This document shows positions 1-43,046 of a stretch of 64,000 nt of DNA, piece after piece. This DNA comes from Isoetes taiwanensis (lineage: Eukaryota > Streptophyta > Lycopodiopsida > Isoetales > Isoetaceae): assembly GCA_021234155.1 (NCBI GenBank), contig JAJEKV010000108.1, forward strand, positions 1 through 64,000. The letters run 5' to 3'. Under the pieces are notes generated by a model, which saw only the letters and a program-made list of their open reading frames with translations, was not told where the DNA came from and did not search any database. Position numbers and translations under genes: made by a program. Numbering within the stretch: position 1 is the stretch's first letter; every line of letters begins with the position of its first letter.

Positions 1-2616
1 GGAGGATAAGAAGGGACCCGCGAATGAAAGTGCAACACCATTATCTAGTATTCTTGTCCAAACAGAATTTAAAGAATGTACACATGCCGAAATAACCCTT
101 TCATCCTGCGGATGAGAAGCGACAAGGGGCCGGGAGATTTATTAGATGATGCAAGCCGCAGTTAGGATGATGATGAAAATGAAAACCTTACATGGGAGAA
201 TGTCTTGCAAAGCGTACAAGCACAAATGCAATCGAGAAAAAGGCTAACCAAGTGTGAGATTAGAGAAAGTTCATTGAAAAAGGGTTATTCTTTGGATTCT
301 TTGCCCTTTCTCATTCCCCTATTCTTGTCTGATACATTTGGTATTCATCCCACCTTGCTCAAACTATCTATACTTAAAAACAATTACATCGGTTGCATTA
401 TGAGCTTAAACTGCGTACCAAAAGAAATGACTTAATGTGGAATGAATTTCCGTCAACATGCTATCAAAATTTTTATGTCAAAAGCGCTATGTAATGGAGG
501 GCTATTAACTCTCTTATGTTCCTACTACAAATCATAGCAAAGCGATAAGAGAGATGAAGGCCATATCTAGTATCTGGGTTAGGGAATTGCATCCAAGTCG
601 AGAGCATCTTAAATAATGTTGTTGCAAAGGCGGGACAAACTAATGTTTATCACAAGTTAGATTTAAGCTAAGGCTTGTGGCACCATGAGCTTCCACATAA
701 GGCAAGGCGGGATGGGGTACTATGGATTGCATGATGAAGTTGCTCAACTTCACTCATGCTTGATTATTTTTCTAGGGAAACCTTCGAACTCAAAAGGGTA
801 TTAAACAATCAAAACTCCACCTAATGTCAATTTGCCCTTTAAGACCATTGATATTGTCCTCTTGAAGCAATTGATTATGGCCATGTTTGCAAAACAATGG
901 AGTCCATACTAACTATCATAACCCAATAAGAGGTGTATGCGTATTTTGGCTCTGTTCTTTTCCCTCGCCCTCTTCCTTATAAGGATGGCTTGAGGGATTG
1001 GTCATGAGTCGATTATGAAGAAGAATTCTTGGCTGAAGGTGGTAGCTTGAATTGCACAAAGGGAAGTTACTATTTACTTTTTTCTTGCCTTGGATGTCTT
1101 GTTAAATGGAAAAATGCTTTGCCCAATGGAAATTAGAAGGCTCAATTTTGCTAGTTTGAAAAGCTTGCGGAAAATCATGCCTAAAGGAAAGCACTCCAAG
1201 CTTCTAGGAATTCCATAGGCACTTGATGTCTACATGACAAGGATAAACTATTTATTCTAGACACCAAAAATAATGGCAGCTCAAGGACAAGGTGGTAATG
1301 GACAAAGTGTTCCCTTACGTCCTTAATAGAAATTTATAGTTTTCTGAGAATAGTTGAAATGTAATATTTTTGTGCTAAAGCATATGCCATAAAATATGTC
1401 AATTGGACAAGTAGGGCGTGCTCTAAGGCTAGCGAACTCATCCAACGATGAAGTTTATGTTGAATTAGTCAAATCGTTTTGCATTTTCAAATCAACCCTA
1501 ATGGTCTCTAACATTCTCATGCTAATGGTGTCAAAACTTCAATGGTACCTAAGTTTATTCTATAATAGAAAGTATATATTACTTTTTAGGGTTTGCATTC
1601 TTGGCGAATCATTTGGAGCCAAGTTACGTTTTGAATCTTCTTGCGACAACATTACCACGGTTATCAGCTCGATTGCAAAATTGTTGGAGTTGTGTGGTAT
1701 AAATAAGACATATTTATGTAAATCGATTATCGAGGTGGGATAGATTCTGCAAATGAGAAAAACCAGATAGCATCAAAGTTGCTACAATAGTTTAGTCATT
1801 TCCAATATTACAGTGTTTTTGCTATAGTGAAATTCATAGTGTTAAAGGGTGAACTTTTAAGTATTGCATTTTAAGCTTAATCTTCTAGATAAAAATTACT
1901 TGTTGATATTGCCTAGATATTTGCATTAAGCTCAAAAATTGAAATTGTATATAATATACAACAACGGTATCGAGCAAGATATTTAAAATGGCTAGCAAAC
2001 TTGGAGCATCTACGCTTAGTGCTATTGATGTGTTTAAAGGTGATCACGAGGTTTTCAAGTTTGGAAATAGAAGGTTCAAGATGTGTTAGCAATTGAAAGA
2101 TTGTGGGATATGGTTATAGGAGAAGGGCAATCAACTCTTAAATAGGAGATGTCCTAATAAAGGCAAAACATATACTATTGCAGTTAATGGAGGCAGTTCA
2201 ATTGGGGAGGCAGTTGGAGGATTTGAACGTACTAGCTACTGAAACTATCATTACACTTTATAGCTAAGGGAATGACTCCAAAGCAAAGTCTACAACTTCA
2301 TGGTTGCCTCATAGAAGCCGTACTTATGCACGGGAAAGCAGGGCACCCATTACTAAGCGTGTAGATAAGATATTGAATACATGGAAAGTAAAATGGGAAT
2401 GATGTTATCCCATAGCTAGATTATGATTTATAGGTTCGAAAGCTATGCCCAGTGTTGCTGGGCATCATACTTGTATCCTTTTGATGTCATCCCAATTATG
2501 AAGCTGTGAAAGCCATCCTAAAGATAGAGCATTGCAGATTTGCAAGTCATCTGCCAACAATCAAATGGTACCTCAGTATGTAGTGCCATGTGAAGCTGTG
2601 AAAGCGATCCTGACCA
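1..2616. other. No gene recognised
   Basis: AT-rich sequence with only short open frames on both strands, none resembling a known protein. A short stretch containing gaagctgtgaaagc is repeated at about 2,500 and 2,591. Nothing else could be supported here. Confidence 0.5.
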
Positions 2617-2724
2617 TGGAGCAATCACTGTTAGATGTAGTTACAAGGTCACCAAACCAATAAAATATCCAACAAATTCTATCGAAAATTGCTCATGTGA
2701 TTCACGAGAGGGATCTTATGGTTC
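2617..2724 (-). mobile_element. Truncated second LTR (start fragment)
   Basis: Read on the minus strand, this starts CCATAAGATCC and follows the first ~107 bases of the LTR at 60,739 and of the one ending at 4,143. It is preceded on the minus strand by a purine-rich run (about 2,725-2,750), as expected of a polypurine tract before a 3' LTR. After 2,617 the similarity stops, so the LTR is truncated. Confidence 0.55.
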
Positions 2725-2994
2725 TACTATTCTTCTACTTCCACTGCAAAAGCGCCTTTTGCCTTGGGATCACCTTCTTTGGAGATGGTCTATCATGGCT
2801 CAGTGCCTTCTATGACTTCCCAAAGCAATTTTGCTTTGGGATATAGAGTGAAATACCACACATGTCCATCCATCGTATCTTTTGCCCTCAAAAACGTGAG
2901 GCTCGAGATGAATGAGTGAAGAATTAGGGTTTTTCATTCCCTAAGCGCAGGATCTCTTTTGATTTTGGAGTTTTGAAAGCCTGCTCTAATACCA
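2725..2994 (-). mobile_element. Short internal region of Copia-type LTR element with PBS
   Basis: The minus strand reads TGGTATTAGAGCAGGC at 2,979-2,994, immediately after the LTR end. This is the usual Copia primer-binding site for initiator tRNA-Met. The following ~100 bases match the equivalent region at 61,856-61,975, including the stretch with aaccctaattcttcac. Only about 270 bases lie between the two LTR pieces and they hold no coding domain. The element is therefore non-autonomous (TRIM-like) or internally deleted. Confidence 0.65.
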
Positions 2995-4143
2995 CGTAGA
3001 GTCTAAACCAAAATGCAAACCAAGAAACTAGAAAACAAAAGTACATAAAATGAATGAATGAAATATAGTGGGCCTTTGGCTAATATACCCTAATGGGGTT
3101 CACCTGAGACTTAAAATCAGCGATGAGTGGGAGGTGGGCATGACTAGCTACATCAATATCCTCCGGTTGCAATAGTTTCATTGAGAGTTTCCTACCAGAT
3201 TAGCAGTTCTGCGATGGAACTTGCAGCGCTGCTCAGAATGTCATATGCCTTGCAACTTGCATTTTTTTTTATTATATCCATGTGAATCCAGCATAAAGGT
3301 CATAAATGTAAGAAACTAGGTGTCTGATGTAACTGTATATGGTTACAACGGACACACTGCTTATCTATCTATCGTGTGGCGTATCGTGTGGCGTGTCCTT
3401 GTTGGGCAAGTTCGAGTAAGAAGCTTTGTTTAGGTTGATATTAGAAATTTTTGGTTGAGCATCGTAGAAAATTTCAGGTAGATTTTATACATGTTTGTAT
3501 AAGGGCAATGCAAATTTCCCATTGGGACTGAAAATATCCGGCTATTTTTGAGGAAACATTAGGAAATTTATTTTTTGATTCTTAGGGTTGCAATGGCACA
3601 TATATCAAAACATATAGGATGGATCATTGTCTAAATTTGGGTTAACAACTATCTAAACAAGAAGATGGACCCATAGTCTATGTCTAAATAGAATAGAATA
3701 GAATAGATTTTTTTAGCGTCCACGAGACCAATAGGTCATGGGACCCATACAATGGGCTAGTACAATCATACTACTAGGATTAAAAAACCCCTGCCTCGAA
3801 AGATTTTCAAGGGAAAAACCTTTGCAGTAATGATGATACTAGACAAGCAGAGATAATGACTACTGAGGGCTCAGCAAGTATGTAGAATGTCAAGTCATGC
3901 ACAGATGGTGCTCACGAGAAGTTATTAGGCGTGGAATGGAATGCTAAGGTCAAAAATGATTAGGACTATCTCAAAAGCGAGGGCAACTTTCGGAAGAGTA
4001 TGGACAAACTTGTGAGATTGTCTAAAAGCGAGGATGGAGCAATTCTTTGTTAGATATAGCTCTACGGGCTTCCCAAACCAATATAATACTCGAGCGAAAT
4101 TCAAAAATTGCTCGTGTTATTCACGAGGGGGATCGTATGGTAC
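2995..4143 (-). mobile_element. LTR of Copia-type element (minus strand), interrupted
   Basis: On the minus strand this is the counterpart of 60,739-61,839. Shared blocks are 2,995-3,580, about 3,600-3,690 and about 4,000-4,143. Relative to the right-hand copy it lacks roughly 270 bases near 3,590 and has about 300 extra bases at 3,690-3,995. The inner end reads ...TCTACG, where the other copy has TCTACA. The divergence indicates an old insertion. Confidence 0.65.
3690..3995. mobile_element. ~300-bp insertion inside the LTR
   Basis: This segment is absent from the LTR at 60.7-61.8 kb. It begins with repeats of GAATA followed by a T-run, which could be the tail of a short non-LTR insertion in minus orientation. 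No coding sequence or pol III boxes were recognised, so the class is unknown. Confidence 0.4.
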
Positions 4144-9959: not shown

Positions 9960-10405
9960 TACAAACTGGGCGCCCGCCCACTTTGCATTTGGGAACTGGG
10001 CCACCCCCGAGAAATTGGGTTTCTGAACAAAGCTTTCTCGAGGCTACCCCTGAGAAATTGGGCGGCCGCCCACTTTGTCTTGGAGATGGTCTGATGAAAG
10101 TTACCTCCAGTCCTCCAGAGCAAATTGAAGCCCGCCCACTTTGCTCTTGGAATTGTCTGAACAAAGCTTTCTCGAAGCCACCCCCGACAAATTGGGCGCC
10201 CGCCCACTTTGTCCAGGAGATGATCTGATGAAAGTTACCTCCAGTCCTCCAGAGCAAATTGGGCGCTCGCCCACTTTGCTCTTGGAATTGTCTAAACAAA
10301 GCTCCTTGGAGGCTTCCCAGCTTAATTGGACGGGGGCCCACTTTGCCTTGGGAATTCCATCGAGACCTCCAGAAAAAAATGGGCGGGCGCCCAATTTCCT
10401 TGGGT
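9960..10405. repeat. Cluster of AAATTGGGC/GCCCAATTT palindromes
   Basis: About seven hairpin units start near 9,967, 10,052, 10,123, 10,190, 10,255, 10,323 and 10,376. Arms are variants of AAATTGGGC and GCCCA(C/A)TTT around a variable GC-rich centre. Most units are followed by a shared spacer that includes CTTGGAATTGTCT or TCCTCCAGAGCAAATTG, giving a degenerate tandem array of about 65-70 bp. Open frames across the array are by-products of the repeat. Confidence 0.8.
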
Positions 10406-14245: not shown

Positions 14246-14487
14246 TTGAAGGCAAGGATGGCCTAGTGCCACGGCAAGTAGCATTAGACAGGGCCATTTA
14301 TATAGGACACATTATGAGCATTACGGTGATCTGCTAGACCAGGGAGGCTATATGGAGTATGTTTCCCTAGGATTTGAGGTGGTTTATTGCCTACACAAGG
14401 GTTTGCTCATAAGGAAATCAATCCAAAGTGGCCAGTGAGGCTTTCAGAACCAAAATATGGCATTGGTGATCCAAAATATGGCTTCTT

Positions 14488-14665
14488 GTTTGTGATACGG
14501 AATAGCATAAAGAGTGCGTTTGTATTCGGAATACAATAAGAGGTCACGTCTGTATACGGAATAGCATAGGAGTGCATGCTTGTATTCCGGAATACAATAA
14601 GAGTGCAAGGTTCTATTTCCGAATAACATAGGAGTGCGCAATATTCTATTCTGGAATAATATAAG
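14488..14665. repeat. TATTCCGGAATA palindromic words, second cluster
   Basis: Six words in 180 bases are variants of GTATTCCGGAATAC, one of them perfect (near 14,581). Spacers are recurring: ATAAGAG(T)G and CATAGGAGTGC. Spacing is roughly 30 bases. No gene overlaps with support. Confidence 0.7.
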
Positions 14666-15831
14666 TATTCACGGGCAACCTCTCTAGACAGATTTGGCAT
14701 GTTCTAGTGATTTAATTCTTCATTACACCACAAAACTTCATGATTACTTCTTTTTCACACTTTACACTTTCGGGTTAATGTTAGCAATTTAACTTTTGTG
14801 ATCACACTGCTGCACTTTACGTTTTTAATATTAGTAATTTCACCTATGGTCTATTATAAATTAAACCTTTTTTGTGTATGTTCACAATAACTTCGGTGGA
14901 AAAAAATAAAAATGTAGTTGAAATAGCATATACTAAATCATAATCACCATAATGTTTTGAACTTAAGCCCTAAAATTGACTTTTTTAAATGGTTGATATC
15001 TTGACGCTATCGTAAAGAAAAAAAATTGGGGCCAAAATAGCACACATTAAATTGTAATCACCATGTGTTTTTGGACTTAACCCACAAAATGGCCATTTCA
15101 AATAATTAATCTGTTTTTTAGAAGGGAACCTTCAAACGGGAATCTTTGCAACACTCCAGTTTAGTATCTAATCTTGTTTTTTAAAATGAAAGCACTTATT
15201 TAAAGAAGCGTTTGAAAATTCCTTTATAAAAATTGGAAACTTGAAAAAATGGACAAAATAGGGAGCAAAATAGATTGTTGAGCAAATAGCATTCAAAATA
15301 CCCCAAAAAAAGCAACCCTTTTCATTTTTATAAAAGGGCAAAAAAAAAAAAGCTTGTTTTGAGGAGAGAGACATTAAATTTAAAAACTCATTAAGTATTT
15401 GTCGTTGAAAATAGAAGGAAATATAGTTTGTCTTTTTGCAAGCTTAATATAAGTACTAAGAAAATCAAACATAGAAAAGAAAAAAGTGTGAAATCATAAA
15501 TCAAAAAAAAAAATTGTTCTAATTAAGCATTGTTAAAGAGACAAAGTTTTTCGGTTGAAAAATCTTCATCAAAATATATTGAAATTCTTAGCACATAGAT
15601 TACAATGAAAGTTAATTTAAAATCATGCGTATAAATTTATACGGGAGGTGGATCTTCCGATCCACGGGACTCTCGTTCCCCTTAGGATCTGTCTCTTGCG
15701 AGGTTTTAATAGCGAGGCGCCCCCCGATTCCAATGGTACAAATCTGGTGATTCTGCGGCTCGGGCACCACGGGCTCGGATCGACAAACTCCACCTCCTCA
15801 TCTCTTCTTCTAAAGTAAGTGGAATTTGGAT
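14666..15831. other. No gene recognised
   Basis: Very AT-rich spacer downstream of the methyltransferase gene. Two degenerate copies of a block with AATCACCAT..GTTTT..GACTTAA lie near 14,935 and 15,050. A lone GTATAAATTTATAC palindrome at 15,629-15,642 belongs to the family that fills the next gene's introns. Confidence 0.4.
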
Positions 15832-16302
15832 TTACGTATATGTGCCTTTCACATCGCCCGACACCGTTTTTGCTCCCGGTTCCTCGTTTTCATCGGGAAA
15901 GGATTCACAAGAGCTTATCACGGTCGATGAAACTATTTTTTGTCTGGTCTATGTCAGCGGAGACAACATTGCGCCCTTGCTTAAGAGCATAAAGCTATTT
16001 AATGGTGCTGAGCACGAAAATGCATCTAGAATCCGGTCTCTGGCGAGAAAACCCGAATTAAATTATTAATTAGCATTTGTGGCCCGATAATGAGATACGA
16101 GCTCCTTGTCGTTGTGGGTCTCTCAATTTTTGTAGAACGGTAGGAAGGCGAAAAGCGTTGCGAGGGGTGGAGTCTTTTCATTCCAGCGTGTTGAAATGAA
16201 CCATGGTTTTTGGTGTCCGTATTTGTAAAACCAATATGGAAATGTTCAAAGCGACTTACTAAGCGTGGACCACCACCATGTCCTTTGACATTTGTTTTAG
16301 CA
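15832..16302 (-). CDS. Gene 1 last exon: methyltransferase motif X and SAM-binding motif I
   Basis: The acceptor is TTTGTTTGGCAG ending at 16,303. The exon reads ...FEHFHIGFTNTDTKNHGS..., then LINNLIRVFSPETG, then ILDAFSCSAPLNSFML (about 16,032-15,985). After one missing G in a GGG run (15,974-15,976) it continues NVVSADIDQ. This pattern of helix, (V/I)LDxFxxS and an acidic residue at the end of the next strand is motif X-I-II of amino-methyltransferases. The last glycines of FxGxG are replaced (FSCSAP). A further frame change follows in an A-run. The tail SFPDENEEPG... ends at a TAA (15,832-15,834). Confidence 0.6.
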
Positions 16303-16370
16303 CTGCCAAACAAAAAGCAATTAAACATTGGCGAGAAAGAAAGCGAACAAAATTAGTTAAGTGGTGTGGC

Positions 16371-16441
16371 GGTATAAATTTATACCACCATTGCCTTCTT
16401 TGTATAAATTTATACCGCGAGGCGTGGTATAAATTTATACC
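16371..16441. repeat. Three GGTATAAATTTATACC palindromes in an intron of gene 1
   Basis: Copies at 16,371-16,386 (perfect), 16,402-16,416 and 16,426-16,441 (perfect) lie in the 181-base intron between the motif IV exon and the motif X/I exon. Confidence 0.9.
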
Positions 16442-16483
16442 GTGGTGTTAAAGTAAAAGAAAAGCAAGAAATTCAAAGCTTAC

Positions 16484-16800
16484 CATCAGCGGTTTTGAAG
16501 CCAGCGTTCTGAGGCGACTCCCAATGGCTTTTAGCCAGGCATCGTCTGCGGTCGGAATGAAAAATGATGACCCTCGGTTTTCGGATGTCGTGACTTCTTT
16601 TAGGCCATCCAAGAAAGAGCGGACTTACCGCGTGAGTAAAAGCCTCCTCGTCAAAAGTGCTATCCTTGATTTTGAAGCCATAAGGAATATCGCAATGCAT
16701 AATGTAAAGTTTTGTTTGTCTAAAAGAGTCCCGGCCTCGTGCGATCACCATGAACAACCACATTTGGGCGTCGACCAAATGTAGTAAATCTCTCGTAAGT
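16484..16800 (-). CDS. Gene 1 exon: methyltransferase catalytic motif IV (DIPYG)
   Basis: An open exon reads VDAQMWLFMVIARGRDSF..., then YIMHCDIPYGF (DIPYG codons at about 16,677-16,694), then VIIFHSDRRRCL..W and NAGFKTADG. A hydrophobic strand, then DxPYG, then a strand ending in S/D, then a helix and xGF is the motif IV-V layout of N6A/N4C methyltransferases. The usual sequence is (D/N/S)PP(Y/W); here the first proline is isoleucine. The exon ends CTGATG|GTAAGC at 16,484, a good donor. The following intron (16,303-16,483) carries three copies of the palindrome. Confidence 0.65.
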
Positions 16801-17149
16801 AGTGTCAAAGCTGCTAGTCTTTGACTTGCTTTCCTTGCTCAATTGCTTTCGGTCTACGCCTCTCCTCCTTGGCCCTCTGAACCAGGTTTAAAAATCTGTT
16901 GGTAGGCCTTTCTTCTTCAATCTGCAAGAAAAGCGTGAGACAAAGGCACGAAAACAAAAAGTATTTTACGTACAACTTACCCGATACTTGAAGTTAACGG
17001 CGTGCTCTCGATAATAGTATCGTAGTAGAGGTTGGATATAAAGCCTGCACTTTCGTCCGGTCCTCGGGTTAAGTTGCTCCATTAATTACGCATGGCGGTG
17101 ACAATGTCTTTCATTTGCGAGAGGGAAAAATGTGATCGGACAAAATTCC

Positions 17150-17455
17150 TTAAAAAAAGAACCACGACATAAAAGTGTGGCTCGTCTTAGCTTCTTTGGC
17201 CATTTTAAAGTGAGAGTAAATTCTTTGGCCACAACTTTTTTCTAGAAGTCTTACAAAATTTCTTTGCTTTTCAAACCACAGCAGGCTGCGTCCGGTACAA
17301 TGCTCATTTTTTTTGTTTTGCCTCACCACCTTTTTTGGTTTTTTCGTCGAGCTAGATTGTTCTTTCAGCTCACCATCTTGAACATACAAAATATTCTTTC
17401 TTGAAGATCCCACACTGTTGTGATCGAACACAAGTATTTTAGTGTTGAATGGCGA
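17150..17455 (-). CDS. Gene 1 linker exon (basic)
   Basis: The minus strand reads ILVFDHNSVGSSRKN, then LYVQDGELKEQ and a lysine-rich stretch KKPKKVVRQNKKNE. I do not recognise a domain. It lies between the ParB-like exon and the methyltransferase exon in the same orientation, so it is placed as linker. Its exact ends are uncertain, and 16.80-17.15 kb between it and the next exon is not resolved. Confidence 0.35.
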   Translation of the reverse strand, partial: SPFNTKILVFDHNSVGSSRKNILYVQDGELKEQSSSTKKPKKVVRQNKKNEHCTGRSLLWFEKQRNFVRLLEKSCGQRIYSHFKMAKEAKTSHTFMSWFFF

Positions 17456-17510
17456 ACAAAGCGTTTGTTACTCTGTCTCTTGTATTATTGCTGCGGAATA
17501 CCGACCCTTT

Positions 17511-17845
17511 GTATAAATTTATCGTGACCGGGCGCGGTATAAATTTATCACAGATTTTAACAATGGTATAACTTTATACCGTGCCTGGCAACGGTATAAA
17601 TTTATACCGATCACCGGCTGCCGGTATAAATTTATACCCACTACTCATGGTATAAATTTATCACGATCACCGGTACGCGGTATAAATTTATCTGAGTGCA
17701 CTGCTCCGCGATATAAATTTATCACGAGATCACCGGGTACCGGTATAAATTTATCACAGGTGCACGGTATTGATATAAATTATACCATCTGTCACGGTCG
17801 CGGTATAAATTTATCTTGTGACCCGCCGCGGTATAAATTATCCGT
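17511..17845. repeat. Array of ~13 GGTATAAATTTATACC-type words in an intron of gene 1
   Basis: About 13 copies with spacers of 10-25 bases lie between the ParB-like exon and the linker exon. Some are full palindromes (near 17,593 and 17,620). Many end in TTTATC instead of TTTATACC. Recurrent spacer pieces such as ATCACCGG and CGCGGTATAAATTTAT suggest growth by local duplication. Confidence 0.9.
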
Positions 17846-17946
17846 GCACGGTCTTCCTTGGTACGCATTTACAAAGTTTGATGTTAATATAAAAACTCAG
17901 CTATGCTAAGCATACTATAGACAACTAAATTAAAGCTTTTACTTAC

Positions 17947-18590
17947 TTGACCATCTCTGAAAGCAAGCTGGAAGTAATTGTCGTACTGCTTCACAGCCAT
18001 TATGGGCTTCTTATCTGAATCGTAGTTGAAGGCTGACTTTCTACGTGACACAAGCTTCTCGAAGTTCTTGGAGCTTGTTCTTTTGTTTTTTGAAGTCCTC
18101 CCCATGCATTTGCTTGAACTCTACGTATTCCCGGTGCATGAAGCGGATCTTGTCTATAAGACTCATTTTTAGTCTGAAGTCATTGTCGAGATTATGACTC
18201 ACGCGGCAATGACCTTTGCTTCCTCGTCTGTGATTCCAACGTAGATATGTGCTTCTACACTCTTCCAAACTTCGTTACGGGATTCTTCTTTTGAAAGTTC
18301 CTTCCTTGCTTTGTAACTATGTGTGCCTCCAAGTACAAAATATGTGTAATCCTCAAAGTTAGCCTTTTTATAGTCTTTTAGTTGGTTGCACTGACTCCTG
18401 TCAACCATTACAACAAGTGGCGACACATGGGCATGAGGATTCCTTCTCATTCTTTGCTTGAGTATAGCCACATGTAATAAAGCGTCACGACTTTTCGTAC
18501 ACGAAGAACTCGACCCCATCTTCATTTTTAGGCGGCCTCTTGATAGTGCTCAATGTCAAGGAAATTGTTTGCTTAAGCGGTTTAGTTTCA
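17947..18590 (-). CDS. Gene 1 ParB-like domain exon(s), frame-broken
   Basis: The order read is LVVMVDRSQC, YTYFVLGGTHSYKARKEL (about 18,346-18,296), VEAHIYVGITDEEAKVIAA, HNLDNDFRLKMS (about 18,200-18,165), YDNYFQLAFRDGQ and the donor GTAAGT (exon end 17,947). G-G-x-H-S/R in place of the ParB GxxR box, followed by a strand, 'T-x-E-E-A' and an N-rich helix, is the ParB/Srx-type layout. Frames change near 18,210 and near 18,065, so at least two small length changes interrupt it. Its role in the fusion would be DNA or nucleotide binding; catalytic residues cannot be judged. Confidence 0.55.
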
Positions 18591-18639
18591 TTAACTTTGT
18601 TTTAGAATAGCACTTGACTTGTCCACGGGCTTCACAACA

Positions 18640-18907
18640 ATATCGCACGGAGCATAGCCGAACGAAGAGCCTGGCGACTCCTCTATAGTCAATGCCTTTG
18701 TGGTTCTCTTTTTTTTTTTGGTGGGGTACGTGTATCTACTACCGGGGAATGCTTCCTACCCTTTCCCTTTGGTATTACTATTTCCTCCTCTTCCTCTTCT
18801 TCTTCTACTTCCTCAACATTTTCTTCCTCTTCGATAGTAGTGGGGTACCACGGACCTTTGACCAACACCTTTTCCTCGCATAAAGCACCCGACATCAAAA
18901 TGTCCAC
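18640..18907 (-). CDS. Gene 1 acidic/basic linker exon
   Basis: The minus strand reads KGPWYPTTIEEEENVEEVE followed by glutamates, then PKGKGRKHSPVV and PPKKKR. In another frame it continues TKALTIEESPGSSFGYAP and IVVKPVDKSSAIL. The frame change falls in a long A-run (plus-strand T-run at about 18,710-18,720). It resembles a nuclear-protein linker with a basic cluster that could serve as a nuclear localisation signal. Confidence 0.4.
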
Positions 18908-18980
18908 TATATCTGTAATCGAGGGGTTTAGTTAGGAGGATGGCGGTATAAATTTATCGTAAAGCCACTAAGAATAACTT

Positions 18981-19200
18981 ACATAGCCGCCCTTGTAATT
19001 TTTCGGATATGTACTCATTCCGTCTTTGGACTTGCACATGTTTAATCTAAGCATTTTACTCGAGAACATAGAAGACTTCCCCATTGTCATGCATGCACTT
19101 CATTAAAAGTTCATTTTCGTTTTTACGTAGCAACCGGGTTTATCATCTCGCCCGGCGGGATAATAATCATCGACCTTGTACTTTCCCTTCCACGGTGATG
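18981..19200 (-). CDS. Gene 1 upstream exon
   Basis: The minus strand reads FVPSPWKGKYKVDDYYPAGR then KPGCYVKTKMN and, in an adjacent frame, LLMKCMHDNGEVFYVLE, ending near KNYKGGY with a GTAAGT-like donor at about 18,982. No named domain was recognised. A lone GGTATAAATTTATC word at 18,944 lies in the intron between this exon and the next. The start codon of the gene was not found. Confidence 0.35.
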
Positions 19201-19570
19201 GCACAAAATGCAGTGCGCCTCGATTGGTTTGCTCTCTCTTAGCCCTTTGTGGGCGTACCACGTCCCGGTCTTTTAGTTAAATGCGTCGTGGCGCGGGGAG
19301 GTGCGGCTGTGAAGATTGGCCTTTGTGCACAAATTTTATCCTTGGGACGGTAATGCGTTAAAAACCATTTTTTAAGTAAGAAAGCGAGAATATTTTTGAC
19401 TTTTGACACACAAAAAGCGGTAAAAGCGAGAGGCTAAAAGGGCATAAAATCCACACTTAATTAACACTTTTTTTGTCTTATTTAAGCTTAAAACACAACA
19501 ATATTACTAAAATATTAAGGTTCGGGTCCATTCTTTAAGCACTAGACACCAAGATCCGAAACAATTTTGA

Positions 19571-19895
19571 AACGGTATAAATTTATCGCCCCAGAGCTCG
19601 GCGGTATAAATTTATCCGAGATAACTTCTGGATCGGTTATAAATTTATGCGCTCAGGTGCTTGCTCGGCGGTATAAATTTATCTGGTTCAGCTACATTCG
19701 ATATAAATTTATACCATGAAGTGTTCTTGAGCGGTATAAATTTTATCGCTTCGTGCTCAGCGGTATAAATTTATACCGCTCTAGAACACTGCGGTATAAA
19801 TTTATACGATTTTGTTACGGAGCGGTATAAATTTATAAATTTCGACGGGCGTATAAATTTATACCGACCGAGCCATCTCGGTATAAATTTATCGC
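19571..19895. repeat. Array of ~11 GGTATAAATTTATACC-type words, 5' part of gene 1
   Basis: Eleven words occur with a typical preceding GCG or CGG (GCGGTATAAATTTAT...), a mixture of full palindromes and copies ending TTTATC. This lies upstream of the first recognised exon of gene 1, probably in a 5' intron. Confidence 0.9.
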
Positions 19896-20163
19896 TCGAG
19901 CTACCACTCTAATGATTAAAACAAAAGAAAGTAAAAGCGATGCGGAAAGTAGACTTACGTGGCCATGGCCCGTATGGACTAAGCGTATAGGCGTTAGGAG
20001 AGCAAATAAGAAGGGGGTATATAAAGGCGGACCTGGCGCCGACTCGATGTCGCGTATATATAGAAAATAGAATTGGCCCGGTAGGGCAAAGTACCCCGCT
20101 AGCTGGCGTTTAGGTATGGCGTTTCTCCATAAAGTTTCCAATACAAATTAATGCGTGAGTTTT

Positions 20164-20336
20164 AGGTATAAATTTATACCGTTTTTGTTCTATGTTACCC
20201 TCCTCGTATAAATTTATACCATCTTAGTATAAATTTATCTTTGTCTCTGCGCCAAGAGTTTCCCTTTCATGTATAAATTTATACCATCTCGTATAAATTT
20301 ATACCGTCTGTTCTTACGTAGGTATAAATTTATCTG
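20164..20336. repeat. Six TATAAATTTATA palindromes between divergent genes
   Basis: Six copies lie in the gap between the minus-strand gene 1 and the plus-strand DUF7869-type gene, which begins at about 20.4 kb. Because the core contains TATAAAT on both strands they could act as TATA-like elements in either direction. That role is speculation. Confidence 0.85.
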
Positions 20337-20415
20337 ATTGTGGCGCTAACTTTACGGTATGGCTCGAGAGAAAAGCTGCTGAGCCTCCAACTCTGTTCGC
20401 GGGCTCCCCACTGCA

Positions 20416-23400
20416 ATGAGTTTCACACCTCCTCAGCGGACACCCGGGGAAGTAGTCATGAATATTCTAGCTCGACATTCCAACACCCGGCTCGTTGAGC
20501 TTACTCGACCACGACCACCTCGGCTTCCACCACCAGTTCAATTTACTCCACCACACCCTGCTCACGAGCGTCGTTTGCCCCCCACCAATGCGTTTTACTC
20601 CACCCGCAGGCTAGAGAAGCGGACTACCTCCTCGGTTAATTTTAGTAATTAAGCCCATAGTCCGCAGTAGGCTCCCTCCCCGGAGGCAAATTCACGCCAA
20701 CTCCATCCATTTTAGCTAAATGGTACTACAACAAGTGGGGGCGGTCGGCGACGCCCAACTCCTCGTGTTCTCACGACACGCCAGGAGCTGGTCAGCTTCG
20801 TCACCAACCTCGATTACTTTTCCCCGGAGAGGAAAGCACCTCCCTCGGGACTTGCCCACATCAAACCTCTCGGCATCTACAAGTACACCTCATGTTGATC
20901 TCTCGGACGAAGAAACACCTCATGTTGATGTCTCGGGGCGAGGACCTACGAAGCCACAAGACTCCATGTTGAATTCAAAGCCCCGCAAGTAAGAATCTTA
21001 AAGCGTAATTTACACAAGAAAGCATGTACAACCGTTAGAAGAAAGAAACTCATGGGCCGAGGCTCACTTGCGGGCAACACATACAAAGCATTGTTGTTCT
21101 CAAGCGTTGTTTGCTTAAGATTGGACTAAAGGAATTGAGGTTGATTAAGTGATAGTTCTGAGTTCAATGACTCTGCTAGACCAAAGGGCTACTTAGCCTT
21201 CAATATTAGGCCCGATTGTGGTGAGAAGTTTACTTACGGTGGTGGTGGCCTACGCCTCGTCAAGCGGCCTTCAAATTGATTCATGCTTTAAGCGTGAGGC
21301 GACTTGACCGCTGAAGAAAAAGGCTTGACAAGAATCCGGGCATTAATGACTCTGCCATTCGGGGAGGTATATCGAATTCATGCCCTTCAATGTGTTTCTT
21401 GGATGGAAGGTTTCTTTAAGGAGTCTTGCGAGAAACTCCCCTAACAGCCCCATGTACCACTTGGTGACAATTAGTCTCACGATAATTATAAGGAGATGTG
21501 TGTTGAATTTGGAGAAGCGGCTTTAATCTGCTACTCTTACTTTCTTGTGCTTTCGGAAAAAAGAGTTTTTCAGCGTGTCCATTCCTAGAAAGCACGGATG
21601 TACGTTTTGTGCTACATGCTCTGAATTAAAAGCTTCGAGAGACAAAATGCAAGGACACTTCACACTAAAAGTAAGCTTCGGGGCGTGTTCTTGCCTAGTT
21701 CTAACTAAAAGTAGGTTCTTTCCTAAATATATTTTCATTTGGATGTATTGAAGGGCCCGAACAAGCCACGAGAGAACAACAATCTTTGGAAAGGAGAAAA
21801 TTGACAAAACATAGGAAGAAAGCCTTTGGAACAACCACTCAACTACATATCGGTTGTTATTGATGGAATGGACGGAAGAAGACCACCCTACCACATTTTG
21901 TCAATGTGCCTAAGGATCTTCTTTGAAGAAGATTTCATACATGCATGTTGTTGGTGCTATGGTATTTAATGGAAAACTATCTTGCAAGGCATTTTTGAAT
22001 TATCCAAACATTCATGCTGATCCAAATCTCACTATCACAATATTGAATAAGCTTCTTTCCAATCTAGAACATATACCACGGTTACGTATCTTGACTAGAC
22101 AACACGACAAGGGAAAATAAGAATCAAAGCGTTGTTTGCTTCTTGTGCTATGCTAGTAGAGAAACAAATCTTCAAGAAGGTGAAGATTGGTTTCTGCTTG
22201 TTGGTCATACATACGATCAAATTGATCGGATGTTGATGTAGGTTCTCTAAGCGTCTTGCTTTCGAAAAAAAGCTCTCGACCTACCAGCAATGATTGAGGT
22301 TATCCAAGATTCCTACAATCCTTGTCCGGACATCGAGTTATTGGAAGAAACTTATGATTTCAAAGAATGGATTTTTCGGGGAGATCAACTAGGTCAGCGT
22401 GCTATTGAGCCCTTGAGAAACATTACATTTCGACATCGGATCAAAATTTCACTTGTAGATGGCAAGGCCATCTTACAAAGAAAGAAATATGCCACATCCT
22501 TGCGATTGGCGGCCGGCGTGAATATTCAATTCATTAGCACCATCCCCAATACTAGTTCCATGCTCTCTGCTTGAATCAAAATGCCTCTAAAAGCTTGAAA
22601 GAAATCACAAAAGAGTAAAAAGGAGGGAAGAGCATTTGACTCAAACAAATCATTGGATTATATTGAGACAAGTATTTGATCTGCTCTAACCACTTTGGGG
22701 AGGCGGATGCTTTATGGTGGCCTCAATTTTTTTCGACAGCGTGACATGTTGCAAGCTTCATTACAAGGTCGAAGACCGGTTACATTCAAAGCGGCCATCT
22801 AGGCAAACTCTCCACAGTGCAAGTTGAGAATCAAGAGGAACATGTAGAGATATTGGCTAGCTCGGATGAAGATAGCGAGTCATGTACAACCGCCCCCAGA
22901 CGCCTGACACAACAAGTTGCTTTCGAGTATGCGGTTCGATCTCGAGGAGATTGAGAAAGGAATGCTCATAAGCTGTCCCGGTGATAATGATGAATCACGG
23001 GAGGCCATTTTGGCTAGCTAAAGTCTTGGAGGTAACAAAGAGGATGGAAGTCCCACTCAATTAAAAGTGCTTTGGATGAGAACATTTCTTTGCCAATGCT
23101 TTCGAGTGGGAGTTATACTTTGGAGATGGTAAAAGCGAGGAGTGGGAAAGAGAGCTAAGTCCAAAGCAAGCTTGCTGGCATCATAGATCTAAGCTGAAGT
23201 AAAGGTTCTTGCATATGACTTTGTTACATTGCTGCTAATAAATTACGTATGGTCACTCAAACTTTAATAAGGTCGGCATGTGGATTAGACAAACAAGCCA
23301 AAAAGGTGGCAAAAAAAGATGATGATGAAGACTCACTTGTAGACAGTACATCTAGTTTTGAGAGTGAAGCTGAGGATGAAGGCGCAAGTGATCAGGGAAT

Positions 23401-24009: not shown

Positions 24010-24360
24010 AGCAAATTGGGCATGAAATAAATTAAATTAAAGGTTTTATTTTCTCACGGCAAATTGGGCATTAGAGGAAATTTTCTCATTTTGCAGATAA
24101 CCCATTAGAGGCAATTTGAGATCTCATTTTGTCCTTAAAGGGATGCTTAAAAGCCAAGCTTTTTAATTTGTCCAATAAGAGAAAGAGCTCCGGTGTATTT
24201 TATTCGGTATTAAGGTCTCAAGTTCAAAAAATTCAAACACTATTTGTGGCAATGGACAACAAGATTGGGCATGAAATAAATTAAATTAAAGGTTTTAGTT
24301 TCTCAAACGCCCGACATTTTCATGGTAGACCAAATTGGGCGTCAGCCCAATTTGGTTAAC
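24010..24360. repeat. Direct repeats with AAATTGGGC words
   Basis: A ~40-bp block, ATTGGGCATGAAATAAATTA.., occurs at about 24,015 and again at about 24,265. A full palindromic unit CAAATTGGGCGTCAGCCCAATTTG lies near 24,332 (arms CAAATTGGGC and GCCCAATTTG). This is downstream of gene 2. Confidence 0.7.
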
Positions 24361-24479
24361 AAAAAATTGAACTGGGGACAAAAGAGAATTTTAAGACAAA
24401 AAGGAAATGAAGGAAAATTATCATTTCTCAAAAAAGTAATTACAAATGTTCATAACATATTTCCCATATTTTGAAATCA

Positions 24480-25078
24480 TAAATCCCTCATTAGATGCGG
24501 AGACACCTCTTACGAATGCTCCTTCTTTGGGTTCTTCATCTTTGGGAGGAGGTTGTTATCTTTGCCTCCTTGATCTTTTCCATTCTTTGCCTAAAATCTT
24601 TGGACCCCAGTTCCTCATTCTCCTCATCTGCAGCCTGACTGTCTTCTGTGTTCGCGACCACTTCCTTTCCATCTTGACTGTCCAATGTGTTGGGGACCAC
24701 TTCCTCTCCATCCTCATTAGAGTTTCCATGACAACGACAGACTCAGGATCCCTAGCAACCTCTCGAACTTTGAGGTCCCCTCAATCATGTCCTGAGTATT
24801 CACCAGTGCGGTCCCTGCCAGTGCGTTGATGTTGTCTTTTCTTCTCCTAAATAGTTGCAAATCCACGAGAGCCAAGGGCATTTGCCTTTTGAGCTCTAGG
24901 CTGAATCGAGCTCTTGTCTGTCTCGGAAGGGATTGCACGCCGTTTATGGTTGTAGAGGAGAAGCGGACAAGTTGTCTCGGGGGCGGGAAGGCGAATTTGA
25001 GGAACATTTTGGAAGTAGAGGCCTTCTTCTTTCCTTCTTTGATCTTTTGTAGTGCAGAGCTCTTGATTTTTTTCTCGT
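24480..25078 (-). CDS. Gene 2 C-terminal region (lysine-rich then acidic)
   Basis: After a short intron (25,079-25,130) the minus strand reads DEKKIKSSALQKIKEGKKK..., then a basic region, and in another frame below 24.75 kb an acidic run EDGEEVVPNTLDSQDGKEVV and ADEENEELGSKDFRQRMEK ending near 24.52 kb. The frames are not continuous, so the exact C-terminus is uncertain. The plus-strand open frame here is antisense to it. Confidence 0.4.
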
Positions 25079-25130
25079 CTAACATGACATCGAGTTGCTC
25101 GAATATCGTACAAGCTTAATTCTGACTTAC

Positions 25131-25342
25131 CGATGCGTCTCAAAAGACAATGTTTTATAGCCCTCGCTGCTGCGCTTTCGGTTAAAAGCACCCTTGGGAA
25201 AAGAAGTTGAGAACAGTGCAACCTTCCAACATCAACTTCTGTATTAGATAGGTGCACGTCCTACTTTCCAACTGATTCTGGATGAGTACTCCTTCCCCAC
25301 CTGCTGCACCCTTGTCGCACCAAGGACGATACAACCAATAAG
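25131..25342 (-). CDS. Gene 2 exon with methyltransferase motif X/I-like segment
   Basis: The acceptor CCCTGCAG (to 25,343) joins in frame to the previous exon. It reads AYWLYRPWCDKGAAGG, CTYLIQKLMLEGCTVLNFF, SQG, and after one T missing from a T-run (plus-strand AAAA at 25,184-25,187) LTESAAARAIKHCLL. This parallels LINNLIRVFSPETG/ILDAFS in gene 1. The SAM-contact pattern is degraded (NFFSQG). It ends CGCATCG|GTAAGT at 25,131. Confidence 0.5.
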
Positions 25343-25386
25343 CTGCAGGGAAAATAAATGTTAGAAACATTCATAGTCAACAACGA

Positions 25387-25410
25387 AATTCGGCGGGCGC
25401 CCAATTTGAA
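25387..25410. repeat. GCCCAATTT half-palindrome in the 76-base intron of gene 2
   Basis: AATTCGGCGGGCGCCCAATTTG sits inside the 76-base intron 25,343-25,418, so even the shortest intron carries the word, with a degenerate left arm. Confidence 0.8.
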
Positions 25411-25418
25411 ATGCATAC

Positions 25419-26484
25419 CTGCTGCACACTCATGATCAGGCAAATTCTTTTCGATGTCCTGTTTTTCTCGCAAATGCTTGGGAAACTTAGCATATTGCTT
25501 AGGATGGTCTGAATTGGCGAAGCAAATATTTAATTCCTGTACAGATGGCGGAGCCGCTGCGTCTCTGGCAACATACATTAGCAGGACAAGACATTGCAAC
25601 TCTCGGACTCTAGAGGTGGAAGCACTTCTAGCCGGGGGGTCCTGGTAGGAACCAACCCAAACACGGCTGCCACCGTCTATTGTCTTCATGGCGGATAGGC
25701 ACTCATTGAGGCGATCCGGCGTAATAAATATAGCTATCCAGTAAAGCTGCTGGTATGTCATCGTGCTAAGCTGGTCAAGGAATTTTTGATAATCCTCCTT
25801 TGCCCATTTCTTTGTATATCTGAAGTCGCAACCAACGAAGCGGGCAGAAGTGTTCACCACGTCTACGCACAAACCTAATGGACTAATGTGGAAACACTTG
25901 AACGGTTTGCCACCCTCCTCAACTGGCCCAAGAAGATATTCGTCTACTTTCCCGTAGAGGGACTCCGGAAAGCTTTCCTTCTCCATCTCTTTGCGTCCTT
26001 CTGCCCATCCACTGATACTACTGGCGAACATAAGCATCAAATTCTCTGTGAATATGGGATGAGCTTGCCTCAAGGCAGCCATGTCTTGTAAAGGAAGTTT
26101 TTTCACTTCCTTCATGTATCTGACAAGGGCCCGCTCCATTGTTCCAATCTTCTTCAGCTCTAGGGCTCTGACTTTCATGGTACGTCTTCCAGTATAATCC
26201 TTGCTTCCCTTCAGGAATGTGGTGCCATCCTTGATCTCCTTCATCAGCCTTTGCAGATCTAGAGGATGCATAGACTTCAATGGGCGACAGGAATTGTTGG
26301 TGAACATTCTGAGCCTATCTTTGACTTCAATTTTTTCTCCCTTCTCATCCTTCAAACGGTCTTCGTAAAATAACTGGGCAATCTCAGTGCACTTTGACCA
26401 CGATTCGTCATCCAGATATACAAAGTAGTCATAGTCACACATAGTTGACTTTTTAATTGTTTGCAGCGCGACATCCACCCAATC
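25419..26484 (-). CDS. Gene 2 long exon: methyltransferase-like domain with degenerate catalytic motif
   Basis: A 355-codon exon with no internal stop, from the acceptor TGTCATGTAG (to 26,485) to the donor CAG|GTATGC (exon end 25,419). It starts DWVDVALQTIKKST and contains CDYDYFVYLDDESWSKC, charged helices, FVGCDFRYTKKWAKEDYQKF, QLYWIAIFITPDRLNECL, RELQCLVLLMYVARD and QYAKFPKHLREKQ. CDFRY followed by a hydrophobic strand (LYWIAIFIT) occupies the place of CDIPYG...VIIFHSD in gene 1. The catalytic prolines are absent. The long uninterrupted frame contrasts with the rest of the locus and argues that the gene is not old debris. No database family could be assigned with certainty. Confidence 0.6.
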
Positions 26485-26534
26485 CTACATGACACAGAAG
26501 GCATTAGATAAGGCCCATACACATAACCCAAATG

Positions 26535-26815
26535 TGCACGAGCGGCGATTGCCAAATTGGAAGCCCAATTTACGAGTGTCCGACACTTGAAATCAAAGCT
26601 GGCGAGCCCAATTTACTGAAGCGGGTGCCAAGTAGGGAGCCCAATTTGGCACTCATTCGGACAAATTGGCGTCATGCCCAATTTGAGCGATGTCGCCCGA
26701 CCTCAAAGCTGGCTGAGGCGCCAATTTACTGTCACGAGTGCCAACCGGTATGCGCCCTATTTGGCACCCGTTCGGGCAAATTGGCGCCCCCAATTTAATC
26801 GATGTCGGACGGTCA
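26535..26815. repeat. AAATTGGGC/GCCCAATTT words in intron of gene 2
   Basis: About eight half or full units such as CCAAATTGGAAGCCCAATTTAC lie inside the 406-base intron 26,485-26,890. Spacers recur: GAGTGCCAA and CGATGTCGG(A/C)CG. Confidence 0.85.
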
Positions 26816-26890
26816 GAAATAGAGGCGGGCCTTAATTTAACCTTCTTTGGGTATACGAACTATCAAGAATAATGGTTGAAGAACACTCAC

Positions 26891-27320
26891 ACAATAAGCT
26901 CCCAGGCGGAGTGCAGCGTTTGCCCTTCTTAGGCTTCGGTAGAATGCCCTGCGGTTTTGAAGGCTGCTGAATTTCTTGAAGAATACTTCTTCGTGTATAG
27001 CCTTCTTTGTTATGTCATTATTCTCTGGTGACCGCGAGCGTACTCAATTCTTTGTGAGATTTCTGCCGGGGACTTCGGCATTTCCTTTTGGCATAGAAAA
27101 AGAATATCGGTTCGCCAAGTGCTTTCTTAGGAGGCCATGCCAAAGCTTGTGTGACAAGCGGTTGAGCAGCCCGTGGTATTATGGTTGCCATTAACAATCA
27201 AAATTACGCATTTTGCGGGTCTTACGCCTTCTTCCATTTAATTGCTGCATACGTCTGCGGATTGAATAGTGCGACATCGGCATAGGGAGGGTGCATCGAT
27301 GGGCTGATAAGCGATTCATC
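26891..27320 (-). CDS. Gene 2 ParB-like domain, frame-broken
   Basis: Reads YADVALFNPQTYAAI (about 27,300-27,250), LIVNGNHNTT (about 27,205-27,173), a strand FFFYAKRKC, TRENNDITKKAIHEEVFFKK (about 27,030) and SLQNRRAFYRSLRRANAALR, ending with the donor GT|GTGAGT (exon end 26,891). L-x-NP, then (V)NGNH, then ENND matches the order of ParB/Srx-type domains and the equivalents at 18.2 and 11.1 kb. Stops and shifts separate the blocks. Confidence 0.45.
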
Positions 27321-27679
27321 TGAGTGTCAAGTGCTCGGACTTATGACCCTACAAGTCATATTTGCGAGGGGCTTTATGCACATCGACTTCAATCTCGAAG
27401 CCCACCCCCGGAGGGTAGATTCTCTCCACATTGCTTGATGCTTGCAATGGCTCTGTGACAACTCATGCACTGCTCTCTGTGTGATGTCGCCACGGATGGA
27501 GTGAATTTCCGCGATCGCGAGTTAGTCTCCGTTTTTCGGTTGAAGAAGCAGATAAAGACTCCCTCTCTGAACTATTTGGGCTCTGTAGTGAGATGTCCCG
27601 CTTGTGCCTCTTAGAGGACGGACCAGCTACATGTTGTCCTCTGCGCTTAACGGGTTCCTTTTAGGGCATTTGTTCCTCT

Positions 27680-28034
27680 TACACACTCACAGGCGACCTT
27701 GTTGTTCTCGACATTCCACCCAATACAAGTTTAGGGGCAGCTTTACGGGGAATAGCCGGAGCCGGTGTCCTTGCCTTCTTTGCTGTTGTCGGTGTCTCCA
27801 TGGGCGCTTGCGCTTGCGCTTGTGCTGTCTCACCCTTCTTGTATCTAGACTTAAGCCACTTAGTATCGTATACTTTGGGTTGGTTTTTGCCTTGATACTC
27901 GTAAGCGATTGCTTTTGACACATTACGTTTTGTGTTCTAATATCCTTGCGCGACAAGCGTAGTAGCCATACAAGATATCAGTTCTTGATTTGATCCCCGA
28001 GCGCTCTAAACTTTCATATGAGTCTAGCACCCAT
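27680..28034 (-). CDS. Gene 2 middle segment and basic/proline linker
   Basis: From 28,030 the minus strand reads VLDSYESLERSGIKS, DILYGYYACRARILEHK, then after one extra A in an A-run (plus TTTT at 27,928-27,931) NVSKAIAYEYQGKNQPKVY, DTKWLKSRYKKGE, AQAQAQAPMETPTT and a basic/proline stretch. The first part joins in frame to the segment ending at 31,935 when the inserted element and one target-site copy are removed. A gap of undetermined coding (27.32-27.68 kb) precedes the ParB-like part. Confidence 0.5.
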
Positions 28035-28068
28035 AACAAGGTGACCTAGCAAACGCACTAATGACCTG
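28035..28068 (+). repeat. Left terminal inverted repeat
   Basis: A 34-base arm, identical in reverse complement to 31,901-31,934, abutting the CCAT target copy at 28,031-28,034. Confidence 0.9.
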
Positions 28069-31900: not shown

Positions 31901-31934
31901 CAGGTCATTAGTGCGTTTGCTAGGTCACCTTGTT
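31901..31934 (-). repeat. Right terminal inverted repeat
   Basis: A 34-base arm, the reverse complement of 28,035-28,068, abutting the CCAT target copy at 31,935-31,938. Just inside it lies the self-complementary GAATCTTTGAAAGATTC. Confidence 0.9.
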
Positions 31935-32439: not shown

Positions 32440-32775
32440 ATTTGTCGAGCTGAAATTGGGGGTCCGCCCAATTTCCGTTGCTGGGCAATGGTGAAACTAT
32501 TAACACTCATGGTGAGACTTGGGGCTGAAGAGACGGTTGCATCATAGAGGCCAAATTGGGCACCCGCCCAATTTGGACGCATCCATTTACACACCAAATT
32601 GGTAGCCCAATTTATACATAAGTCTTGGTAGAAGGAAGTCGTGGTCTCCTTCAAATAAATTGGGCGTCCGCCCAATTTAAAGCAAGGGAGAAGTTCCTTC
32701 AATGGCCCATGAGTGAAGTTGAAAGTAGTTAAGTTACCCCTCGAATAAATTGGGCGGGCGCCCAATTTAATGGAA
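32440..32775. repeat. Five AAATTGGGC...GCCCAATTT hairpins in 5' intron of gene 2
   Basis: Units lie near 32,453, 32,552, 32,597, 32,659 and 32,747. Arms are AAATTGGG(C)/GCCCAATTT and centres vary (GGTCC, ACCC, GTCC, GGGC). They lie between the donor at 32,999 and the acceptor at 32,385. Confidence 0.9.
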
Positions 32776-34460: not shown

Positions 34461-34790
34461 AGCTCCCAGCGTGGGCAAATTGGCGGGTCCCCAACTTCGT
34501 TTTACCGGTCTACGTCACTTTCGAATGTGTTTTACGTATGGCGGCTAAATTGGGGCCCGTAGTTTCTACCTTCTTTCTGGTTCTTCTACAACCCACGACC
34601 AAATTGGCCCAATTGTCGCGATCATGGCTTTGTTGGGCGAGAACTTTTGTTGTACCCGGTGTGACAGCGGCATCAATACTAACCTTATATAAAGCCTCAT
34701 TCGGTTCTAATTGGGCGCGCCAATTTGCAACAAGGGGAATCTAAGGACCTCATATGTAAAATGGGCACCCGCCCAATTTCATTGTCCGTG
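34461..34790. repeat. AAATTGG / CCAATTT words
   Basis: Scattered units include GCAAATTGGCGGGTCCCC, AATTGGGCGCGCCAATT (near 34,708, a perfect palindrome) and AAAATGGGCACCCGCCCAATTTC (near 34,758; arms AATGGGC/GCCCAATTT). Confidence 0.7.
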
Positions 34791-42770: not shown

Positions 42771-43046
42771 AAAAAAACGATTTGCTCCTTCAATGTACAA
42801 AACAGAAGGATGGGAAATTGATACCTTTGATAGAATGAAACCCTGCAAATCCAAAAATTGAGCAAGTGATGATGCCGCGTTCCTTCTGATCCTGCAAAAA
42901 ATAAGAAATAAAAAGGGCAATGCTTCTATAACTCTGAAAATTGAAGGCAACATTAGCTTTTCTAGCCCTCATACCTGATTACACTAAAACCTAATCGTTC
43001 TCTCAAAATTGCTCTCTCATAACATCACCGAAATCGTCATCTCAGC

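Follow-up and report, generated by a model that had tools for sequence, protein, structure and literature searches.

What is a gene for a ParB-like domain fused to a beta-class DNA amino-methyltransferase doing in a plant genome, and is it still at work there? The question is raised by a 64,000-nucleotide stretch of Isoetes taiwanensis DNA (contig JAJEKV010000108.1, positions 1 to 64,000; hereafter, the window), in which a preliminary description had placed such a gene at 15832..19335 and read it as a member of a horizontally acquired or mobile-element-borne eukaryotic adenine/cytosine-N4 methyltransferase family. Taken as a whole, that interpretation is partly supported. The locus is probably the decayed remnant, introns included, of one member of a multicopy fern family in which a ParB-like domain precedes a permuted beta-class DNA amino-methyltransferase, the family having been captured from a phage-type source and multiplied in ferns. 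The homology extends from the ParB-like domain to the C-terminal tail, the domains keep their order, the family is multicopy in Adiantum, and the window copy is decayed.

Homology and decay of the window copy

On the minus strand of the window, homology to the ParB-like/methyltransferase family runs from 18.55 down to 15.77 kb, and the conserved parts follow one another as ParB-like block, linker, motif IV, motif X-like segment, start of motif I, ALKQGRNVVSADID and acidic tail. A profile of 35 relatives was aligned to the window DNA with a script that allows frame breaks and long gaps, and the window copy scored 662, against 105 ± 10 and a maximum of 120 in 30 dinucleotide shuffles, so that the resemblance lies beyond chance. 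The methyltransferase third (15.5-17.0 kb) alone reached 154.7 (53.7 ± 9.9, maximum 80.1, in 30 shuffles). As controls, 4.5-kb pieces from across the window (28 segment/strand combinations) were scored as well; two of them overlap the gene on its own strand and reached 304 and 389, and the other 26 ranged from 84 to 132. Searching the window by tblastn with 49 family proteins returned 18474-17944 (E = 2e-23), 18196-18101 (E = 1e-5) and 16021-15920 (E = 0.008), plus a single further locus at 26436-25987 (E = 6e-4), and the reversed window gave zero matches at 0.01. Single pieces were also recovered by hmmsearch, at E = 2.5e-22 and 2.5e-5 for the ParB-like part, 2.6e-6 for the linker and 0.0063 for the ALKQGRN piece. 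By hhalign, the 35-row alignment gave only 30% probability for the ParB piece that hmmsearch had found at 2.5e-22; the frame-tolerant alignment was used because hhalign is too insensitive on single open reading frames (ORFs) of the window.

The blocks quoted in the preliminary description (VLGGTHSYKA, HNLDNDFR, CDIPYG, LINNLIRV, ILDAFS and NVVSADID) all lie on the minus strand. The ParB-like domain (18050..18549) reads VLGGTHSYKARKEL ... EEAKVIA / SHNLDNDFR, with VLGGTHSYKA in the ORF 18549-18199, SHNLDNDFR at 18199-18173, and a frame break between the GGTHS and HN boxes. It is followed by a linker exon (17947..18060) ending in KPIMAVKQYDNYFQLAFRDGQ at the donor GTAAGT at 17946; the linker itself reads DNYFQLAFRDGQ, then VWDLQERIF. 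Since DGQ and VWDLQ adjoin in relatives, homology places an intron (17416..17946, acceptor AG at 17416-17415) between DGQ (to 17947) and VWDLQ (from 17415), and this intron holds nine TAAATTTA cores. The frame-tolerant alignment then covers a linker block VWDLQERIF...GELKEQ... (17168..17415), and alignment and reading frames give the linker blocks RLKKKGLPTDF and RAKEERRR (16766..16923), which come after an acceptor near 16921. The methyltransferase-third score supports the catalytic motif IV block (CDIPYGFKIKDSTFDEEAFTHA) with its YKKVIEAF-like and RVIIFHSD-like segment (16484..16714), in which CDIPYGFKIKD occupies 16694-16662; a donor stands at 16628, yet the alignment runs through 16628-16545, which may be intron or exon. 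The motif X/I part (15908..16344), assigned by alignment and by the ALKQGRN piece, comprises LINNLIRVFS (16073-16044), DRILDAFS (16038-16015) and ALKQGRNVVSADIDQTKNSFI, with NVVSADID inside 15988-15926. The C-terminal acidic tail (15700..15808, RRDEEVEFVDPSPW) resembles EMQFVDLEPYEEP / GEIVDLVDFEP of relatives.

The interval first proposed for the gene needs revision at its low end and is uncertain at its high end. At the low end, the tail reaches beyond 15832, with EEVEFVDPSPW at 15799-15767. At the high end, the blocks above 18.55 kb are without firm homology support, and up to about 19.1 kb they are presumed to belong to the gene by position only. These are a presumed acidic, low-complexity N-terminal region (DIVDILMSGALCEEKV...EEEEEEE...; RTTKALTIEESPGSS) at 18594..18911, weakly aligned and with approximate bounds, which is comparable to the acidic N-terminus of Adiantum proteins, and presumed N-terminal blocks in two frames (ELLMKCMHDNGEVFYVLE; KMLRLNMCKSKDGMSTYPKNYKGGYV) at 18983..19139, which lie outside the homology alignment and end at a donor GTAAGT at 18982. 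The GT-AG junctions seen earlier hold in part: well-formed GT donors occur on the minus strand at 18982, 17946, 16980, 16628, 16483 and 16259, and one intron is placed by homology, but its GT-AG pair joins the exons one nucleotide out of frame.

Other breaks are plainer. EEAKVIA runs to 18205, and SHNLDNDFR, in a different frame, begins at 18199; there is a GTGAGT at 18202, but it already includes the start of the SHN block. Three frames are used within 150 nt by LINNLIRVFS (to 16044), DRILDAFS (from 16038) and ALKQGRN (from 15988), and between the last two, where relatives carry FAGTGTT, no GxGxT can be read. The frame changes from one conserved block to the next and the unreadable GxGxT make the window copy a decayed pseudogene and not the working gene first described, unless the assembly carries many indel errors; the loss of the S-adenosylmethionine (AdoMet) motif favours decay. 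The FxGxGxT motif breaks off after DRILDAFS in the window copy and is present in strict form in 8 of the 49 relatives, which makes the locus a relic of the N6_N4 methyltransferase family and not a working member.

The Adiantum family and the identity of its two domains

Relatives were sought in a database of 5.8 billion proteins, in a search restricted to shared 5-residue words and with only 7997 candidates scored in the profile search. A joined read of the window pieces led to three proteins, all from Adiantum nelumboides, and the profile search to 49 relatives at E ≤ 10 (46 of them at E ≤ 1e-3): 40 from A. nelumboides, 4 from A. capillus-veneris and 5 without an organism name. Every named relative is from Adiantum, and the call of a eukaryotic family is borne out by dozens of gene models in two species of that genus. 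In A. capillus-veneris, GOP47_0012334 (ParB half) and GOP47_0012333 (methylase half) carry adjacent locus tags on a single contig of 162 Mb, which argues that they are not stray bacterial DNA; one of the two is already labelled a DNA methylase N-4/N-6 domain protein by UniRef. Pairwise identity, computed without a tree, separates at least two groups of Adiantum proteins, about half identical to each other, with the window copy further off. By pattern, the GGTH-type box is found in 16 of the 49, HN in 18 and DxPYGF in 27, and DxPYGF occurs together with FAGxGxT in P0007, P0010, P0031, P0037, P0041, P0044 and P0045.

The methyltransferase identity of the family is established. PF01555 (N6_N4_Mtase) exceeds its 26.7-bit cut-off in 5 of 12 relatives scanned (P0006, P0007, P0010, P0018 and P0045) and is below it or absent in the other seven; precomputed Pfam annotation lists it in 13 of the 49. 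The best PHROG match is the DNA methyltransferase phrog_498 (E = 1.6e-15, P0006 427-653 on profile positions 204-423 of 633), and the sequence relatives of P0018 in the PDB are RsrI, a putative modification methylase and CcrM. A tblastn search of phages led to proteins of 411-419 amino acids (Halobacterium phage phiH YcdA and proteins of Streptococcus phages Javan320 and Javan630), and nine phage proteins of that size were aligned for profile comparison. Against these ParB-methylases, the fern profile A3 gave an hhalign alignment of 189 columns that keeps the order IV-X-I (probability 98%, E = 1.2e-13). The permuted order, with IV before X and I, is found both in the window alignment and in the comparison of relatives with phage enzymes. 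The 12 relatives scanned gave no match to MT-A70 (PF05063) at E ≤ 10, and phage ParB-methylases share the architecture. The catalytic tetrad reads CDIPYGF in the window; where P would stand, its second position has I in this copy and A or T in the relatives examined. D-x-P-Y would favour adenine over cytosine-N4 as the substrate, an inference only; DPPY is listed for bacterial N6A enzymes in the available part of one report (PMC8885841).

The ParB-like identity is less firm than that of the methyltransferase, and is supported by its box, its position and shuffles. The fern ParB-like profile scored 28.2 by hhalign against the phage ParB part (P = 3e-4), a value reached in 0 of 200 column shuffles (maximum 20.6), and 27.5 against whole phage proteins (P = 0.0033; maximum 23.5 in 200 shuffles). 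The similarity takes in the G-x-x-R/H-x-x-A box, GGTHS being aligned with the GGHQR/GEHRW box of the phage proteins, in the region upstream of the methylase. Homologues, Pfam and phage profiles support a ParB-like part followed by an amino-methyltransferase with IV before X-I, as the preliminary description had it.

Several results nevertheless weigh against reading the locus as a ParB-methylase of phage type. The fern-phage ParB match covers only 47-48 columns, with hhalign probabilities of 9.7% (whole protein) and 39% (ParB part). ParB_N (PF02195) was not reported in the 12 fern proteins at E ≤ 10, P0025, a protein limited to the ParB-like part, finds no ParB entry in PHROGs, NCBIfam or PADLOC, and the fern ParB profile matches no ParB chain in the PDB. 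Searching phages by tblastn with the window's ParB part gave no match. AlphaFold models of P0006 and P0025 are poor (mean pLDDT 47 and 44), and Foldseek, with one low-confidence model searched, returned no match at E ≤ 0.001. On the methyltransferase side, the 4-row alignment A2 compared more weakly with phage methyltransferases (E = 1.8e-4, probability 49%). The CDIPYGF piece is not significant alone (E = 0.74, worse than an unrelated plus-strand piece at 0.61), so its support is the whole alignment. Seven window pieces of the gene matched zero Pfam families at cut-off; profile searches uphold the methyltransferase call through the relatives, which match PF01555 and phage methylases, and not through the window pieces alone. 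Finally, by pattern, all four boxes occur only in P0010 among the 49 gene models, and this protein lacks the stretch between IV and X, so the whole family may be decaying.

Motif array, origin and neighbouring features

A short palindromic motif array (15627..20337, consensus CGGTATAAATTTATACCG, perfect in two places), absent from the preliminary description, surrounds the gene. Of the window's 32 TAAATTTA cores, 30 fall in the 4.7 kb around the ParB-methylase gene, with a median spacing of 30.5 nt (24 gaps under 70 nt). The 12-mer TATAAATTTATA, with at most one mismatch, occurs 34 times in the window against 0.54 expected, and 31 of these copies lie within 15630-20334. None of the 30 cores falls in exon blocks, which make up 2174 of 4693 bp by approximate bounds; all are in introns and flanks. 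Of the two arms, the left (CGGTA) is the better preserved in 19 of the 30 cores and the right in 8, with no difference in 3, indicating that the repeats are mostly co-oriented. One exact copy of the palindrome was found in IMG/VR contig L001. Elsewhere in the window, AAATTGGGC (25 copies), GATTAACCA (7) and CAAAGTGGG (6) also form arrays, which weakens the idea that such an array is an exclusive mark of the ParB-methylase family. These other arrays, with AAATTGGGC often as hairpins, lie at 9976-10400, 24013-26684, 32466-32768, 34709-34779 and 49096-49475, and short-motif arrays may be a habit of the genome to which the window belongs. A far-reaching possibility, which we consider improbable, is that the phage-derived ParB-DNA-methylase is a self-recognising plant genomic parasite: it would read the clustered palindromes in its own introns and flanks and mark that DNA by exocyclic amino methylation, thereby escaping host silencing, which VANC achieves in a different way, or protecting or mobilising its own copies. 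The palindromes would then be roughly a eukaryotic counterpart of parS, with a site of its own for each branch of the family.

As to origin, the family is most simply read as captured horizontally from an ancestor of phage type, and such acquisition is plausible because phages carry the same architecture. A prokaryotic or phage ParB-methylase would have passed into a fern lineage, where it would have acquired introns and acidic tails and increased in number, either through duplication or as the cargo of mobile elements. The target of intact members would be an exocyclic amino group in DNA, N6 of adenine (the likelier) or N4 of cytosine, and the ParB-like domain may contact or nick DNA; the window copy makes no working enzyme. 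The many copies in a fern are best explained by selfish spread, domestication being the weaker rival.

The alternative that survives best, possible but clearly behind capture and multiplication, is that a plant mobile element carries the ParB-methylase, either as cargo or as its only protein, the window copy being a dead insertion and the motif array the element's recognition site. The 40 gene models in A. nelumboides, many of them truncated, would fit such an element, although tandem or segmental duplication would equally give many copies. One relative's gene model carries PF00665, which we take to be the integrase core, but fused gene models may be annotation errors. Moreover, hAT and DUF7869 relics and a perfect 34-bp inverted repeat are present in the same window, and the TAAATTTA array is confined to the ParB-methylase locus within the 64 kb; the 34-bp repeats, however, flank the neighbouring 28.04-31.93 kb and not this gene. 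A search for inverted terminal repeats flanking the gene itself was negative: 14400-15640 against the reverse complement of 20330-21600 scored 23 at best, and shuffles scored up to 31. This absence also weighs against the capture reading, and makes a mobile-element-borne gene a possibility at most.

An unlikely alternative is a domesticated host DNA-methylation gene family of which the window copy is one dead paralogue. Seven relatives keep DxPYGF and FAGxGxT together and the family is present in two Adiantum species, as such a family might be, but its copy number and frequent truncation are unlike those of a conserved host gene, and no relatives were named from other plants among the candidates scored. 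That the locus is contamination from bacteria or phages, or that its motifs match by chance, is very improbable and largely contradicted: the architecture is phage-like, short motifs alone are weak, and one stretch of a viral collection was reported, with no locus given, as encoding a relative of the window's ParB part, yet the score of 662 against at most 120 in shuffles, the homology-placed intron and the homologue pair on the 162-Mb fern contig oppose it, as do scans for short fern-family peptide patterns in that collection and in 84,980 prokaryote genomes, which confirmed no relative and have little bearing on distant ones.

The window holds further features. A second gene-like stretch at 24424-27936 on the minus strand, with a 407-aa ORF at 26484-25264, may be a very diverged relative of the family, the evidence being mixed. 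The perfect 34-bp inverted repeat (28035-28068 / 31901-31934) encloses around 3.9 kb and perhaps represents the ends of a non-autonomous DNA transposon. DUF7869 remnants (PF25273, 23.8 + 21.2 bits, under the cut-off of 26) lie at 22099-22574 on the plus strand. The 745-aa ORF at 57190-59427 on the minus strand, a long hAT-like transposase frame by its domain matches, has hAT dimerisation and C17orf113-type zinc-finger domains above cut-offs and DUF4371 just below. A minus-strand reading frame from 32377 downward holds MARTKQTARVPGPAPRFAEAVAREEARTEEE..., of which the nine residues MARTKQTAR are identical to the start of histone H3; it is possibly an H3-tail mimic, and a AAATTGGGC array stands just upstream of it, at about 32456-32770. 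Inverted repeats at 2616-4141 and 60741-61936, about 57-59 kb apart, are 81-87% identical in pieces, with gaps, and represent either one repeat present twice or the eroded termini of a larger unit; a giant element of ~59 kb between them is unsupported by such piecemeal, gapped identity. A 1.1 kb tandem duplication (43043-44130 / 44162-45227) is 83% identical, and a tandem array with a 19-bp period (63521-64000) reaches the end of the window.

Comparison with known systems

The ParB-DNA-methylase architecture also occurs in viruses of bacteria and archaea. Like the fern family, the phage proteins have an N-terminal ParB-like domain with a G-x-H box followed by methyltransferase motifs IV, X and I, and their methylase part matches phrog_498, as does P0006. 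Three that were scanned contain PF01555, with ParB_N at 22.4-24.5 bits, under the 26.3 cut-off. The fern proteins are set apart by acidic tails at both termini, by a longer linker and by GGTH where the phage proteins have GGHQR/GEHRW; ParB_N is undetected in them, the family is multicopy and perhaps decaying, and homology places at least one intron in the window copy. In the Bacillus cereus ParB-methylase, as described in the accessible text, a ParB domain acting as a nonspecific nicking endonuclease is fused to an adenine methylase (PMC5512222); the likeness to the fern family is one of described architecture.

Phage ParB-methylases, and the capture of PF01555 by a eukaryote (bdelloids), were known already. 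The bdelloid rotifer N4CMT is reported to be a horizontally acquired, permuted PF01555 amino-methyltransferase with introns (PMC8885841). It has a chromodomain, a ParB domain being unmentioned in the available portion of that paper, whereas the fern family is multicopy and carries D-x-P-Y. MT-A70/METTL enzymes are amino-methyltransferases too, but the 12 fern proteins scanned match none of them. The AMT1 6mA pathway is reported, in the accessible part of one study, as lost in plants (PMC12695648). In the available part of the Ceratopteris genome paper, bacterial gene transfers are reported and no ParB-methylase-type enzyme is mentioned, and in the open-licence literature no ParB-methylase in plants appears in titles or abstract starts among the matches listed.

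Amino-methylation of land-plant DNA is disputed, and a phage/bacterial-type amino-methylase family expanded in ferns would be a direct enzyme candidate for vascular-plant 6mA or 4mC, to be set alongside the bdelloid N4CMT and a liverwort enzyme. A prokaryote-like DNA amino-methyltransferase is known from a land plant in the form of the liverwort (Marchantia) sperm 4mC methyltransferase DN4MT1, which is likened to the fern family by description. Charophyte and dinoflagellate retrotransposons are described as carrying DNA methyltransferases (PMC5890265), and fungal transposons as carrying TET/JBP enzymes (PMC12730594), which indicates that DNA-modifying enzymes do occur on mobile elements. For the motif array, the closest likeness is the VANDAL/VANC anti-silencing system of Arabidopsis, where, according to the accessible text, a short motif is dense in introns and non-coding parts of the encoding locus (PMC5735166). 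The TAAATTTA array resembles the VANC intron arrays in that it lies in non-coding DNA of the gene's own locus, VANC itself not being a ParB-methylase. The parS palindromes are a looser parallel. If the array were the target of the methylase, it would represent a new kind of element-encoded DNA self-marking.

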